Shown here piece after piece: positions 12,813-17,590 of a stretch of 64,000 bases of DNA. Where the stretch lies: the NCBI RefSeq assembly GCF_900112815.1, contig NZ_FOND01000005.1:1-64000 (forward strand), written 5' to 3'. This stretch comes from Blastococcus tunisiensis (GTDB lineage Bacteria > Actinomycetota > Actinomycetes > Mycobacteriales > Geodermatophilaceae). The position numbers and the translations under genes are program-made. Under the pieces are notes generated by a model. It had not been told where the DNA came from. It saw only the letters and a list, made by a program, of their open reading frames with translations, and did no database searches. Positions within the stretch are counted from its first letter, which is position 1, and every line of letters starts with the position of its first letter.

Positions 12813-14840
12813 ATGTCGCAGTCGGAAGCGGTACGTGACGGTACCGGGTCGGGCTCCCGCGCGGACGCCGTCCTGGCCGCCCTGGACGAGGAGCAGCGCG
12901 AGGCCGCGCAGTCCGTCGTCGGGCCGGTGTGCATCCTCGCCGGTGCCGGGACGGGCAAGACCCGCACCATCACCCATCGGATCGCCTACGGCGTCCACAC
13001 CGGGGTCTACGTGCCCGAGCAGGTCCTCGCGGTCACCTTCACCGCGCGCGCCGCAGGTGAGCTCCGTGGCCGGCTGGCCGCCCTGGACGTCGGCGGCGTG
13101 CAGGCCCGGACCTTCCACGCCGCGGCGATGCGCCAGCTGCGCTACTTCGCGCCGCGTGTCCTCGGCGGTCCCATGCCCTCGCTGGTCGAGAACAAGCTCC
13201 GCCTGGTGGCCACCGCCGCCTCGCGCGCCCGGCTGTCGACCGACCGCACCAGTCTGCGCGACCTGGCCAGCGAGATCGAGTGGGCGAAGACCACCCTCGC
13301 CACGCCGGACGACTACCCCGCACGAGCGCAGGCCGCCGGCCGGGAGCCACCGTTCGAGGCCGCCGCGGTGGCCTCGGTCTACGCCGGCTACGAGTCGGCG
13401 AAGCAGCGTGACGGCGTGCTCGACTTCGAGGACCTCCTGCTCGTCACCGCGTACGCGATCGAGGAGCACCAGCAGGTGGCACGCGAGGTGCGCGGGCAGT
13501 ACCGCCACTTCGTCGTCGACGAGTACCAGGACGTCAACCCGCTGCAGCAGCGGCTGCTCGACGCCTGGCTCGGGGGGCGCGCCGAGGTGTGCGTCGTGGG
13601 CGACCCCAACCAGACGATCTACTCCTTCACCGGGGCCGATCCGGACTACCTGCTCGGTTTCGCCGACCGCTATCCCGACGCCGCGGTGGTGAAGCTGGAA
13701 CGGGACTACCGCTCGACCCCGCAGGTGGTGGGCCTGGCGAACCGGCTGATCGGCCAGGCTCCCGTGCGCAAGGGGTTGCCGGGCCTGCGGCTGCTCGGCC
13801 AGCGTCCCGACGCGGGGGAGCCCACGTTCGTCGAGTACCCGGACGAACCCGCCGAGGCGGCCGCGGTCGCGGCGAGGTGCAAGGCGCTGATCGACTCGGG
13901 GCTGCCGGCGGCCGAGATCGCGGTGCTGTTCCGCATCAACGCGCAGTCCCAGGTCTACGAGGCCGCCCTGACCGAGGTCGGGGTGCCGTACGTGCTCAAG
14001 GGCGGCGAGCGGTTCTTCGAGCGGCCGGAGGTCCGCGAGGCGGTGCTGCTGCTGCACGGCGCGGCCGCCGGAGGCAGCGAGCCCGGTGCGCTGGTGCCGA
14101 CCGTCCGCGACGTGCTCGCCTCCGTGGGGTGGGCCGAGCACCGGCCGCCGCCCGGTGGCGCGGCGCGCGACCGGTGGCAGTCCCTGGCCGCTCTGGTCGA
14201 CCTGGCCGTCGACCTGGTGGCGGAGAACCCGGCCCTGGACCTCGCCGGATTCGTGGGGCACCTGGCCGAACGGGCCAACGCGCAGCACGCCCCCACCGTG
14301 CAAGGGGTGACCCTCGCGTCGATGCACGCCGCGAAGGGCCTGGAGTGGGACGCCGTCTTCGTCGTCGGCCTGGTCGACGGCGTGGTCCCGATCGCACAGT
14401 CGCTCAGCCGGCCCGTCGCGGTGGAGGAGGAGCGGCGGCTGCTCTACGTCGCGATCACCCGGGCCCGCGAGCACCTGTCGCTGTCGTGGTCGCTCGGCCG
14501 CAACCCGGGGGCCAAGCGTGCCCGTCCCCGCAGCCGCTTCCTGGACGGGCTCGCGCCCGGGTCGGGTCCGACGGCCCCGGCGGCGCGCCGATCCGTCAAG
14601 CGGCCCAAGGTGGTCCTCGAGGGGGAGGCGGGCGCGCTGTTCGAGCGGCTGCGCGCCTGGCGCAGCGAGACGGCGCAGTCCGCCTCGGTGCCGGCCTACG
14701 TCGTCTTCACCGATGCCACGCTCCAGGCGATCGCCGAGACCCGGCCCGCCACGCTGCGCGAGCTGGCCGCGCTCCCCGGGATCGGGTCGCGCAAGCTCGA
14801 GCTCTACGGCGCGGACGTGCTGGCCGCCGTCAGCGGGTGA
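12813..14840 (+). CDS. uvrD2: ATP-dependent DNA helicase UvrD2
   Basis: A 675-residue superfamily 1A helicase. Walker A is A-G-A-G-T-G-K-T (residues 43-50), motif II is V-V-D-E-Y-Q-D, motif III GDPNQTIYSF, motif V/VI SMHAAKGLEWD and RRLLYVAITRARE. A C-terminal HRDC domain (about the last 65 residues, ATLRELAALPGIGSRK) marks the UvrD2 type. It unwinds DNA 3'-5' in repair and is essential in mycobacteria by reports I recall. The four-Cys segment that mycobacterial UvrD2 has between the motor and HRDC was not seen here. Start ATG 12813 follows a purine-rich binding site (GGGGAGGGGG). Confidence 0.95.
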   Translation: MSQSEAVRDGTGSGSRADAVLAALDEEQREAAQSVVGPVCILAGAGTGKTRTITHRIAYGVHTGVYVPEQVLAVTFTARAAGELRGRLAALDVGGVQARTFHAAAMRQLRYFAPRVLGGPMPSLVENKLRLVATAASRARLSTDRTSLRDLASEIEWAKTTLATPDDYPARAQAAGREPPFEAAAVASVYAGYESAKQRDGVLDFEDLLLVTAYAIEEHQQVAREVRGQYRHFVVDEYQDVNPLQQRLLDAWLGGRAEVCVVGDPNQTIYSFTGADPDYLLGFADRYPDAAVVKLERDYRSTPQVVGLANRLIGQAPVRKGLPGLRLLGQRPDAGEPTFVEYPDEPAEAAAVAARCKALIDSGLPAAEIAVLFRINAQSQVYEAALTEVGVPYVLKGGERFFERPEVREAVLLLHGAAAGGSEPGALVPTVRDVLASVGWAEHRPPPGGAARDRWQSLAALVDLAVDLVAENPALDLAGFVGHLAERANAQHAPTVQGVTLASMHAAKGLEWDAVFVVGLVDGVVPIAQSLSRPVAVEEERRLLYVAITRAREHLSLSWSLGRNPGAKRARPRSRFLDGLAPGSGPTAPAARRSVKRPKVVLEGEAGALFERLRAWRSETAQSASVPAYVVFTDATLQAIAETRPATLRELAALPGIGSRKLELYGADVLAAVSG

Positions 14841-14928
14841 GCGTGTGCGCCGGCGGGCCGGGTCGGTACCGAACGCGACGGCGGGCGGGAAGGAACGGCC
14901 GGCCGACCACCTCCGGAGGACGTCGGAG

Positions 14929-14967
14929 TTAATTCGATTGACCCGGTTCTCGCCCGGGTCCTAGTGT
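14929..14967 (+). promoter_or_regulatory. Promoter of the whiB7 leader, with AT-rich WhiB7-type box
   Basis: TTGACC (14938-14943), an 18-base spacer and TAGTGT (14962-14967) form a good sigma-A promoter. Directly upstream of the -35 is TTAATTCGA (14929-14937), a conspicuous AT-rich patch in this GC-rich DNA. WhiB7 is known to act with sigma-A at promoters having an AT-rich element just upstream of -35, so autoregulation is likely. Confidence 0.7.
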
Positions 14968-15042
14968 TCCGGCACACACGAACTGCGCCCCGTGCTGCTG
15001 GCCGTCCCGGCCCGCGCCGACCCCGAGGAAGGAGGGGCACTG

Positions 15043-15336
15043 ATGATCAGCACGACCACGACCTGGGCCCCCGCCGATCTCCTCGGCCAGGGCGGCCTCG
15101 ACGTGCGCCCGGTGTACGCCACCGGCCCGTGCGCGGGCCTCGCCGAGCGTGCGGTCGCGCCCATGACTGCGCCCACCGCCCCGTCGCGGGGGACCGGTCT
15201 GCCCACCGGCAGCGCCTCCGTCCGCCTCCGTCCCGACGCCCGCCAGGCCATCGGCCACGACGTCGTGACCACGAACGCCTTCGACAACAACGGCACCACC
15301 CTCGGGTACCACTCCTCGGGGAGACCGCAGAGCTAA
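15043..15336 (+). CDS. Upstream reading frame in the whiB7 leader
   Basis: A 97-codon frame beginning at ATG 15043 behind a strong binding site (GGAAGGAGGGG). I recognise no domain; the product is Ala/Thr/Pro-rich with one Cys (YATGPCAGLAERA near residue 25) and ends NNGTTLGYHSSGRPQS. The stop at 15334-15336 lies 20 bases before the leader terminator. whiB7 genes of mycobacteria and wblC of Streptomyces are preceded by reading frames whose stalled translation lets RNA polymerase pass a terminator; this frame is in the right position for that role, though long. An in-frame GTG at 14992 is a possible earlier start. It may have no function as a protein. Confidence 0.65.
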   Translation: MISTTTTWAPADLLGQGGLDVRPVYATGPCAGLAERAVAPMTAPTAPSRGTGLPTGSASVRLRPDARQAIGHDVVTTNAFDNNGTTLGYHSSGRPQS

Positions 15337-15360
15337 CCGCTCGACCGGTCCTCCTCGAGG
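15314..15360 (+). promoter_or_regulatory. Candidate anti-terminator hairpin in the whiB7 leader
   Basis: Bases 15314-15326 can pair with 15347-15360 to give 13 bp with one G-U pair and one bulged C. The left arm is inside the last codons of the upstream frame and the right arm includes the first four bases (15357-15360) of the terminator stem, so the two structures exclude each other. A ribosome finishing the frame would cover the left arm. Confidence 0.55.
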
Positions 15361-15400
15361 CCGCGGAACCCGAACCCCGGGATCCGCGGCCTCTCTCTTT
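15357..15400 (+). terminator. Intrinsic terminator (attenuator) upstream of whiB7
   Basis: Perfect 11-bp stem (GAGGCCGCGGA at 15357-15367 with 15383-15393), a 15-base loop and a T-rich tail TCTCTTT (15394-15400). It is 81 bases before the whiB7 start and in the same transcript as the upstream frame, the expected attenuator position. Confidence 0.8.
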
Positions 15401-15480
15401 GTCCGCGGCGCCCCGGCACCGACTTCCGGTCGGCGGGCCTCCGCCGGCCGTCGCAGACGAGAGAACGAGGAGGAGCGGCA

Positions 15481-15819
15481 GTGCAGCAGACGATCGACCG
15501 CCCGACGTCCCACCGCCGACCCGGGCCCTGGACCGGGGGATTTCCACCGAGGCGCCCCACACCCCTGCCCCCCGCACCGGTGCGGCGGCCGCTGCCGTGC
15601 CGGGTGGAGGACCCGGAGCTGTGGTTCGCCGAGAGCCCGGGGCAGCTCGAGCAGGCCAAGAGCCTGTGCAGCCCCTGCCCCATCCGGGACGCCTGCCTCG
15701 CGGGCGCCCTCGACCGGGGCGAGCCGTGGGGGGTGTGGGGCGGCGAGATCTTCGAACGCGGCGCCGTCATCGCACGCAAGCGGCCGCGGGGACGCCCCCG
15801 CAAGGTCGTGGCCGCATGA
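15481..15819 (+). CDS. whiB7: WhiB7-type redox-sensitive transcription factor
   Basis: A 112-residue iron-sulfur transcription factor. The four cluster ligands are Cys40, Cys63, Cys66 and Cys72 (C-x22-C-x2-C-x5-C). The turn G-V-W-G-G-E (84-89) binds sigma-A, and the C-terminal R-G-R-P-R-K (103-108) is the AT-hook that distinguishes WhiB7 from other Wbl proteins. WhiB7 turns on intrinsic antibiotic-resistance genes. GTG start at 15481 has a strong binding site (GAGGAGGAGCGGCA). Its place between uvrD2 and the ABC1 kinase gene matches M. tuberculosis Rv3197A. Expression is probably controlled by the leader upstream. Confidence 0.95.
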   Translation: MQQTIDRPTSHRRPGPWTGGFPPRRPTPLPPAPVRRPLPCRVEDPELWFAESPGQLEQAKSLCSPCPIRDACLAGALDRGEPWGVWGGEIFERGAVIARKRPRGRPRKVVAA

Positions 15820-15884
15820 GCGGCACCGAGAACGTCCCCCTGTCCGTCGGCAGGGGTCCGACCACCCATCGAGAAGGAACCGTC

Positions 15885-16049
15885 ATGTACATGCTCGAAC
15901 AGGAGCTGTCCCGCAGCCGGATGGGCGAGATGCAGGCCGAGGCCGCCGCGGCCTCCCGTGCCCGCCGCCTGTACCTGGCCCGCCGCACGGCCCGCCGGGC
16001 CGAGCGCGCGGTCCGCCGTGCCGCGCGGGCCAGCGCCGCCGTCTACTGA
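15885..16049 (+). CDS. Small arginine-rich protein
   Basis: A 54-residue basic protein beginning MYMLEQELSRSRMGEMQAEA, then an Arg/Ala-rich helix (RARRLYLARRTARRAERAVRR). I recall similar short proteins in other actinobacteria without a known role. The ATG at 15885 has a clear binding site (GAGAAGGAACC); an ATG at 15816 overlapping the whiB7 stop is in frame but gives an unlikely N-terminal extension. Being 65 bases after whiB7 and before the shared terminator, it is probably co-transcribed with it. Confidence 0.65.
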   Translation: MYMLEQELSRSRMGEMQAEAAAASRARRLYLARRTARRAERAVRRAARASAAVY

Positions 16050-16050
16050 G

Positions 16051-16112
16051 GAAGGACCCCGTCCTCCTCACCCCTCGCTCCGCTCGGGGTGAGCCTCTGG
16101 ACGGGGCCGCCG
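16051..16112 (+). terminator. Stop-proximal repeat terminator after the whiB7 operon
   Basis: Begins directly after the stop codon. GGACCCCGTCC pairs with the later GGACGGGGCC, and an inner CCCCTCGC/GCTCGGGGTG hairpin forms the core. The remaining 155 bases to the next gene contain nothing recognisable apart from a repeated CCCTCCGGG motif. Confidence 0.75.
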
Positions 16113-16267
16113 GAGCACACCGCGGCCAGGAGCTGTCCCCCGATGGCGCGGAGCCCACCGTCGCGCCATCGTGGGACCCTCCGGGCCGCACTCGACACGA
16201 CACACCACGACGCCGTTCAGTCAGTCGCGGCTGCGCGGAACCCTCCGGGTCCCACTCGCCGCGATGC

Positions 16268-17590
16268 TCATTCCGCGAAGCCGGGCAGCCACTCCTCCAG
16301 GACGCTGCGGAAGTCACCGGCCGCGTCGAGCTGGCAGAGCACCCCGATCGAACCGATGGTCACCCGGTGGATCAGCAGGTAGGCCGGCGGCAGGTTCAGC
16401 TGCCGGCCGAGCCGGCTGGCCTCCGACCGGGGGTCGGCGATCCGGCCGGCCTGTTCCTGCATCCACGCGCGGGTGAAGTGGAAGTGCCGCTCGGCCACGG
16501 GGTCGAGCATCGGTCGCAGGAAGTCGTGCACCCCCTGGGCGTCGACCTCCATCGAGGGGCGCACGAAGCCCTCGGCCCGGAGGTCGGCGAGCACCTCCTC
16601 CGCCTTGCCGGCCAGCGCCCACCGCAGCAACCGCCCGATCGGCTCCGGATGGCCGTCCGGCAGCCGGGCGGTGGCCCCGAAGTCGATGACCCCGAGCCGG
16701 CCGTCGGGCAGCAGCCGGAAGTTGCCCGGGTGCGGGTCGGCGTGCAGCATCCCGGCCCGCTGCGGACCGGAGAAGTGCAGCACCGCGAGCAGGTGCCCGG
16801 CGCGGTCGCGCTGCTCGCGGCTGCCGTCGGCGATGATCCGGGAGAGGGGGGTGCCCTCCAGCCACTCGGAGACGATCACCTTCGGCGCGCTCGCGACGAC
16901 GCGGGGGACGCGGATCTGGTGGTCCCCGGCGTAGGCGGTGGCGAATGCCCGCTGGGCGTCGGCCTCCAGCCCGTAGTCCAGTTCCTCCGCGACGCGCGCC
17001 TTGAGCTCGGCGATCAGCGGCTTGATGTCCATGCCCGGGAAGAGGGCGGCGAACAGCCGGGCGAACCGCGCCAGCTGGTTGAGGTCAGCCATGAGCGCGG
17101 TTGCGGCGCCGGGGTACTGGATCTTCACTGCCACGTCGCGGCCGTCCCGCCAGGTGGCGCGGTGGACCTGGCCGATGCTGGCGGCGGCCGCCGGCTGGTC
17201 GTCGAACTCGGCGAACCGGGTGCGCCAGGTGCCGCCGAGCTGCTGGGCGAGCACCGCGTGCACGGTGCGCACCGGCATGGGTGGCGCTTCCTCCTGAAGC
17301 TTGGTCAGGGCCTCGCGGTAGGGGGCCGCGACCTCGTCGGGGACCGCCGCCTCGAACACCGACAGGGTCTGGCCCAGCTTCATCGCCCCGCCCTTGAGCT
17401 GGCCCAGCACGGCGAACAGCTGCTCCGCCGTGCGCTGCTGCAGTTCGGCGGCGACGTCGTCGGCGTCCCGGCCGGAGAGCCGCTTGCCCAGACCCAGGGT
17501 GGCGCGGCCGGCGGCTCCGAGAGGGAGGGAGGCCAACCGGGCGCTCCGGGCGAGCGAGCCTCCCGGCATCACCGGTCCGTCGTCGCTCAC
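16268..17590 (-). CDS. ABC1/UbiB family atypical kinase
   Basis: A 440-residue member of the ABC1/AarF/UbiB kinase-like family. The family's K-x-G-Q motif is KLGQ (71-74), preceded by the QLKGGAM segment; the Ala-rich loop [12 protein letters not shown] (about 134-145) replaces the Gly-rich loop of ordinary kinases; VAVKIQYPG carries the ATP Lys (156); the catalytic and metal segments are HADPHPGNF and VIDFGAT. Relatives support isoprenoid quinone synthesis or lipid homeostasis, probably as ATPases. GTG start at 17590 follows AGGAGG at good spacing. It matches M. tuberculosis Rv3197 in position. Confidence 0.92.

Follow-up and report, generated by a model that had tools for sequence, protein, structure and literature searches.

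The leader of whiB7 in Blastococcus tunisiensis very probably functions as a translation-sensing transcription attenuator of the whiB7/wblC type. It carries an upstream open reading frame (uORF) whose last codons can pair with two regions, the stretch behind its stop codon and the 5' half of an intrinsic terminator (Table 1; all positions refer to the window, the 64,000 nt stretch of contig NZ_FOND01000005.1 analyzed here). The anatomy, conservation, covariation and predicted folding of this leader come from the present analysis. In the mechanism that we propose, the last uORF codons, the post-stop stretch and the terminator 5' half would fold into a long antiterminator during transcription. 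As long as translation keeps pace, the leading ribosome on the last codons would block this structure, the terminator would form and RNA polymerase would stop before whiB7. When the ribosome is stalled or slowed further upstream, or when no ribosome initiates, the tail of the uORF would be free, so that the antiterminator forms first and transcription reads through into whiB7. The WhiB7 protein would then raise the activity of its own promoter. By analogy with relatives of this system we infer the role of the ribosome, the response to drugs and the autoactivation by WhiB7. In actinomycetes, whiB7 controls the intrinsic resistance to many drugs that target the ribosome.

Table 1. Features of the whiB7 leader and its neighborhood in the window.
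Feature	Position	Strand	Evidence
UvrD-like helicase gene with HRDC domain (upstream neighbor)	12813–14840	+	Pfam PF00580, PF13361, PF00570
Likely whiB7 promoter: AT-rich block TTAATT, TTGACC (-35), 18-base spacer, TAGTGT (-10)	14929–14967	+	Sequence
uORF Shine-Dalgarno (SD) AAGGAGG	15029–15035	+	Sequence; SD-led uORF common in relatives
uORF, 97 codons	15043–15336	+	Open frame, ATG 15043 to TAA 15334–15336
Mid-uORF element, conserved; differs at one base from a consensus close to CAGGGGAYCNGTNTGYCC	15187–15204	+	Motif searches
Antiterminator helix 3, left strand	15302–15310	+	Fold, family consensus, pair counts
Antiterminator helix 2, left strand, in last uORF codons	15314–15327	+	Fold, pair counts
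Apical stem GAGC/GCTC, stop codon TAA in loop	15330–15342	+	Fold, family leaders
Antiterminator helix 2, right strand	15346–15360	+	Fold, pair counts
Antiterminator helix 3, right strand, within terminator 5' arm and inner stem	15365–15373	+	Fold, pair counts
Intrinsic terminator hairpin (15357–15393) and T-rich tail	15357–15402	+	Fold, class-wide covariation
whiB7, GTG start, 112 aa, GVWGGE and RGRPRK AT-hook-like end	15481–15819	+	Pfam Whib

Leader anatomy and its recurrence among relatives

The product of whiB7 was assigned to the Pfam family Whib (E = 1.2e-15), and a search of the protein against NCBIfam gave no match. The GVWGGE motif and the AT-hook-like end are presumably marks of WhiB7, and the closest named whiB7 records were mostly from Blastococcus and Geodermatophilus. 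An Rfam search of positions 14000–16500 returned only two microRNA matches at chance level, far below the thresholds. Immediately 3' of whiB7 there is a 54-codon frame (15885–16049) that is rich in Arg and Ala and has no Pfam match.

Direct reading of the sequence places a putative -35 box at 14938–14943 and a putative -10 box at 14962–14967. Between the TTAATT block and the -35 box there are 3 nt, the spacing that a passage of PMC7157823 gives for the WblC site GAAAWY; the block is AT-rich and does not read GAAAWY. An AT-rich block (at least 6 of 10 bases) stands ahead of a TTGAC in 35 of 46 leaders of the same family, a count that takes the best TTGAC of each leader and has no chance control. 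A consensus promoter and terminator scan listed neither the likely whiB7 promoter nor the leader terminator, the probable cause being how many hexamer matches it demands and which loop lengths it allows. Directly ahead of the TTAATT block there is also an inverted repeat (CCGAC..CCTCC/GGAGG..GTCGG, 14903–14926), of which one related locus, L012, has an 11-bp version. This repeat may serve to terminate the upstream helicase gene, with a T-rich end that is at the same time part of the whiB7 promoter.

All positions given in the earlier note proved correct, among them the start and stop of the 97-codon frame, and the Shine-Dalgarno sequence of this frame lies 7 bases ahead of the ATG. For comparison, 199 loci (L006–L204) were extracted. 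After removal of ten duplicates or near-duplicates (L036, L040, L043, L057, L086, L091, L104, L153, L158, and L162), two loci at contig ends (L007 and L056) and two in which the whiB7 pattern was not matched (L145 and L146), 185 were usable. The class sample gave a close match in 136 of 158 genomes, and its leaders stem from 69 genomes chosen from the listed matches for high score or family diversity.

The layout of a uORF followed by a terminator was found in 179 of the 185 usable leaders, the other six (L060, L076, L077, L084, L124, and L147) having no accepted terminator. All 179 have a frame with an SD word of at least four bases and a stop codon within the search bound of -45 to +5, and within this bound the stop codon lies 0–41 bases (median 21) ahead of the terminator. 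Under a stricter rule (at least 37 codons and a 5-base SD word) 174 of the 179 leaders still had such a frame, compared with 6, 9, 7, 11, and 6 in five controls in which two-base blocks were shuffled. The median length of the uORFs is 88 codons with wide variation among relatives, although the starts were picked automatically by SD score and some lengths are artefacts, e.g., the 230 codons of L011. As the lengths vary this widely, 97 codons is no special property of the present frame, contrary to what had been proposed. The overlap of the helix with the last codons, also put forward as specific, is shared as well, given the median of 21 bases between stop and terminator in the 179 leaders, and such an overlap is already in print in a passage of PMC10727445.

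A close whiB7 is missing from four genomes of the same family (G020, G023, G030, and G032), whose WhiB matches are all distant (best E-values 1.4e-9 to 3.9e-11). Two of them, G023 and G032, are small (3.1 and 3.0 Mb) and 95 and 98% complete, and whiB7 may have been lost in these two; G020 and G030 are less than 80% complete. The Nocardia uORFs (within L081–L115) have 104–136 codons and keep the further internal blocks LALQGxGLS, QDKPxxxWH, and RLRxAHPATVIRxRHR. Several of these Nocardia loci have an inverted repeat in the last uORF codons.

Terminator, antiterminator and predicted folding order

The terminator stem has the 11 perfect pairs described earlier (15357–15367 with 15383–15393), followed by four inner pairs across one mismatch, and its tail TCTCTTTGT (15394–15402) is T-rich but interrupted. 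Folding of 15340–15404 gave -34.1 kcal/mol compared with -21.3 ± 2.9 for shuffles (z = -4.47), and folding of 15290–15376 gave -44.6 kcal/mol compared with -28.9 ± 3.0 (z = -5.26); none of 200 shuffles was as good in either case. RNA folded up to 15376, where the terminator 3' arm is absent, forms one long interrupted hairpin.

This hairpin contains the 13-bp helix of the earlier note (15314–15326 with 15347–15360), extended by one pair and here called helix 2 (15314–15327 with 15346–15360), with one G-U pair (15319–15355) and one bulged C (15350). The four bases that it was said to share with the terminator are indeed 15357–15360. A further part, helix 3, had been missed, as had the stop-codon stem and the mid-frame element. 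Helix 3 connects uORF codons to the terminator 5' arm and inner stem (15302–15307 with 15368–15373, and 15309–15310 with 15365–15366). The family consensus of its uORF strand, CTCGGGATCC, resembles the terminator 3' side, CCGGGATCC; in the window this strand reads CTCGGGTACC and keeps eight pairs. Around the stop codon, a stem of at least 4 bp is present in 45 of the 46 family leaders (absent in L035, a different stem in L041; counted without a chance control), with the variants TGAGC/GCTCA, CGAGC/GCTCG, TCGAGC/GCTCGA, and CTGGGC/GCCCAG.

It had been suggested that the 13-bp helix excludes the terminator. In the minimum-energy fold of 15270–15400, however, the complete terminator stands next to 10 of the 14 helix 2 pairs, a number that a separate fold also gave, and 4 of 14 are left when the fold begins at 15000, so helix 2 alone does not exclude termination. 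Of helix 3, none of the eight pairs remains in the full-length folds from either start. According to these models, it is helix 3 together with the four lowest helix 2 pairs that would make the two states exclusive, and the predicted antiterminator is larger than previously described, with the 13-bp helix as one part of it.

Minimum-energy folds of the growing RNA showed the full antiterminator with the 3' end at 15376–15384 (14/14 helix 2 and 8/8 helix 3 pairs counted), and by 15388 helix 3 was replaced by the terminator. At full length the terminator fold (-59.4 kcal/mol) is favored over the enforced antiterminator (-51.1 kcal/mol) by about 8 kcal/mol. The choice must therefore fall during transcription, with read-through as a kinetic outcome; the series itself consists of equilibrium folds, in which kinetics are not represented. 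The position of a ribosome was modeled as a blocked footprint. A ribosome with the stop codon in its A site still permitted part of the antiterminator (helix 2 5/14, helix 3 8/8) until the terminator arm emerges, whereas a footprint 3 or 6 codons before the stop left no pair of helix 2 or helix 3. At 10 codons before the stop 4/14 helix 2 and 0/8 helix 3 pairs formed, at 14 codons 14/14 and 4/8, and at 20 or 30 codons both helices were whole. From these folds we infer that the uORF would signal when a ribosome stalls anywhere in about its first three quarters.

Covariation was examined in an alignment of the 46 family leaders. For the 27 antiterminator pairs, 82.9% of the cells are paired, compared with 27.5–51.0% when the partner is slid by 1–3 columns and with 81.9% in shuffles, which it exceeds only just (0 of 500 as high). 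Double-change cells number 12 against 4.0 ± 1.5 in shuffles (0 of 500). The covariation score exceeds that of the shuffles modestly (0.087 vs. 0.081, 18 of 500 as high), and neither the number of pairs with a double change (81 of 500 as high) nor that of further pair types (441 of 500) is significant. Individual pairs are not uniformly kept: 29 of the 46 leaders lack the pair 15316–15358, which falls within the four shared bases, and 15307–15368 is formed in only 4 and unpaired in 42. RNAalifold predicted the terminator from the same alignment and did not recover the antiterminator. For the terminator there are no compensatory changes among the 46 leaders, 9 of its 15 pairs being invariant, and class-wide (54 sequences) there are 39 double-change cells compared with 11.4 ± 2.7 (0 of 500). 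The covariation of both helices that the earlier note had looked to in relatives thus appears in part. It supports the antiterminator partly, within the family, and the terminator clearly, across the class. As a whole, the ribosome-controlled attenuation proposed earlier agrees with the anatomy, the folding series, the covariation and the literature; what falls away is the 13-bp helix as sole excluder, along with the specificity of frame length and helix overlap.

Constraint on the uORF and a conserved element inside it

The tail of the uORF appears to be constrained as RNA. In 39 of the 46 family leaders one left-arm codon specifies Arg, written AGA in 36 of them and AGG in 3, while AGA makes up only 6 of 1498 Arg codons in the UvrD-like reading frames of 20 neighboring loci. 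Because this rare codon is kept at the left arm, the RNA sequence seems to be the thing conserved. Among 163 non-redundant leaders, the duplex between uORF tail and downstream stretch had a median z of -2.34 against codon shuffles, with 101 below -2 (-2.54 for the leader studied here), and the tail was the best-pairing segment of the uORF in 80 of 163, compared with about 23 expected. In the B. tunisiensis frame itself, the tail is equalled or surpassed in its pairing with the downstream stretch by two of eight interior segments. Against the terminator 5' arm by itself the tail shows a weak signal (median z = -0.42, with 63 of 163 above 0 and +0.47 for B. tunisiensis).

The mid-uORF element is the sole match to its consensus in the window at up to two mismatches (0.30 expected). 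At the same tolerance 27 of the 46 family leaders carry it, as do 15 of the 16 named Nocardia loci listed, and it was not found in the Mycobacterium and Rhodococcus loci examined. In a search for enriched gapped words in the 163 non-redundant frames, pieces of the element ranked first, the top word reaching 44 against 0.5 expected. The exact pattern gave eight matches in 37 related genomes and none for the reversed control, and by their coordinates all eight lie upstream of whiB7; the window, with its one mismatch, is not among them. A weight matrix derived from 21 Geodermatophilaceae and Nocardia sites was run on 106 other leaders, which were held out from the matrix yet had already been viewed earlier in the analysis. 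At a score of at least 10 it found 24 of the 106 leaders in frame 0 (1.3 expected) and 5 in frames 1 and 2 together (1.4 expected), and 77 leaders lacked the element at score 10. A pattern chosen after viewing gave 11 matches in frames 1 and 2 compared with 0.4 expected. From these counts, the frame independence of the element appears weaker than at first sight.

The same evidence bears on drug-specific arrest by the nascent peptide, in which conserved residues of the uORF product would stall the drug-bound ribosome as in erm leaders. Three peptide segments recur in many uORFs of the family, namely the start (near M-I-S-T-T-W), an internal motif resembling QGTGLP, and TTLGIHS..RPQS at the C-terminus, and the internal motif is mostly in frame 0 in the held-out leaders, as counted above. 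The C-terminal conservation, however, is accounted for by the RNA pairing and the rare codon choice, and uORF length varies widely. Codon 4 of the internal motif does not specify a fixed amino acid (G 39, R 8, A 4, T 2, S 2, and D 1) while its third base is T in 50 of 56 in-frame sites, found with codon 4 left unfixed in the matching, compared with 12.5% T at third positions overall. We therefore consider peptide arrest very unlikely, and the element is probably a nucleic-acid element in which the peptide may have a share.

What such an element does is a guess, a polymerase pause or a ribosome-slowing site being the candidates. It may be a nucleotide-level cis element, confined to whiB7 leaders (37 genomes, exact pattern), that acts before the attenuation decision, for example as a polymerase pause that gives the first ribosome time to catch up, or by slowing the ribosome; we put this forward tentatively, as an appreciable possibility. 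Two more specific ideas were rejected. Pairing of the element with the antiterminator right arm seemed possible by eye in the window, but of the 40 leaders listed only L019 and L020 had this arm as the best partner. Base-pair probabilities in 55 leaders revealed no consistent partner (34 local, including B. tunisiensis, 19 elsewhere, and 2 in the tail). A hairpin just ahead of the element, as in a hairpin-stabilized pause, was not favored in the same number of leaders either, where z averaged +0.11 and was below -1.5 in 4 and above 1 in 9. By eye only, a compensatory pattern confined to Nocardia was seen ahead of the element. A literature search on pausing and leader-peptide conservation, judged by titles and the start of abstracts, found no description of a mid-frame element, and we do not claim that it is absent from print.

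Amino-acid-specific attenuation, in which certain codons would sense one charged tRNA and the drug response would be secondary, could draw on published passages according to which uORF regulation of whiB7/wblC acts also in amino acid starvation (PMC11550727), with alanine starvation cited (PMC10727445). By inspection, the 97 codons contain no visible long run of a single codon, and this explanation is in our opinion highly improbable. That the frame is an ordinary small protein gene, with the hairpin merely its terminator, is scarcely credible: the frame has a good ribosome site and its product has no Pfam or NCBIfam match, which is neutral, but the tail looks constrained as RNA pairing with the downstream stretch, a frame ending just ahead of a whiB7 terminator recurs in 179 leaders, and whiB7 would be left promoterless if every transcript terminated.

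Comparison with known attenuators

Amino-acid attenuators of the trp type consist of mutually exclusive hairpins that are read by the position of the ribosome. The attenuator proposed here shares both properties with trp and with mycobacterial ilvB1, an amino-acid attenuator according to a passage of PMC13236596, and differs in that no dedicated run of regulatory codons was seen in its uORF. The attenuators of ARE-ABCF genes are also similar, as in the published passages a drug-stalled ribosome on the uORF decides between terminator and antiterminator, but their uORFs are very short (MLV; MVGDDDISG) with the stall at the start codon. The 97-codon frame would instead sense slowing over most of its length.

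The closest counterpart is the whiB7/wblC uORF attenuator of mycobacteria and Streptomyces, reportedly the subject of work by Lee, Lee and Roe in 2022 and by Burian and Thompson in 2018. A literature search for whiB7 together with Blastococcus found no paper. Attenuation of whiB7 by a uORF is described or proposed in passages of PMC11550727, PMC13236596, PMC4128351, PMC13393426, PMC9618640, and PMC10727445, in agreement with the earlier note, which had called the principle known. The last of these passages adds that actinobacterial WhiB7 genes typically have such leaders and that the antiterminator draws on overlapping uORF and terminator sequences. Since the switch is already in print, the Geodermatophilaceae locus is a further case of it. 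As far as the passages of PMC11550727, PMC9618640, and PMC10727445 go, it has in common with the published systems an SD-led uORF, an intrinsic terminator, an overlapping antiterminator and WhiB7 downstream, while its arm sequences are family-specific.

The mycobacterial leaders differ in two further respects. Their uORFs have 49–56 codons in 11 of the 12 terminator-bearing Mycobacterium loci and 67 in the twelfth, compared with 97 here, and the mid-frame element is absent from these 12 loci at up to two mismatches. The comparison sharpens which leader bases may decide between stop and go, and it leaves a conserved mid-frame element for which terminator and antiterminator offer no explanation. 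If our tentative reading is true, the whiB7 switch would have in this element a second component, undescribed so far and missing in the short mycobacterial frames.
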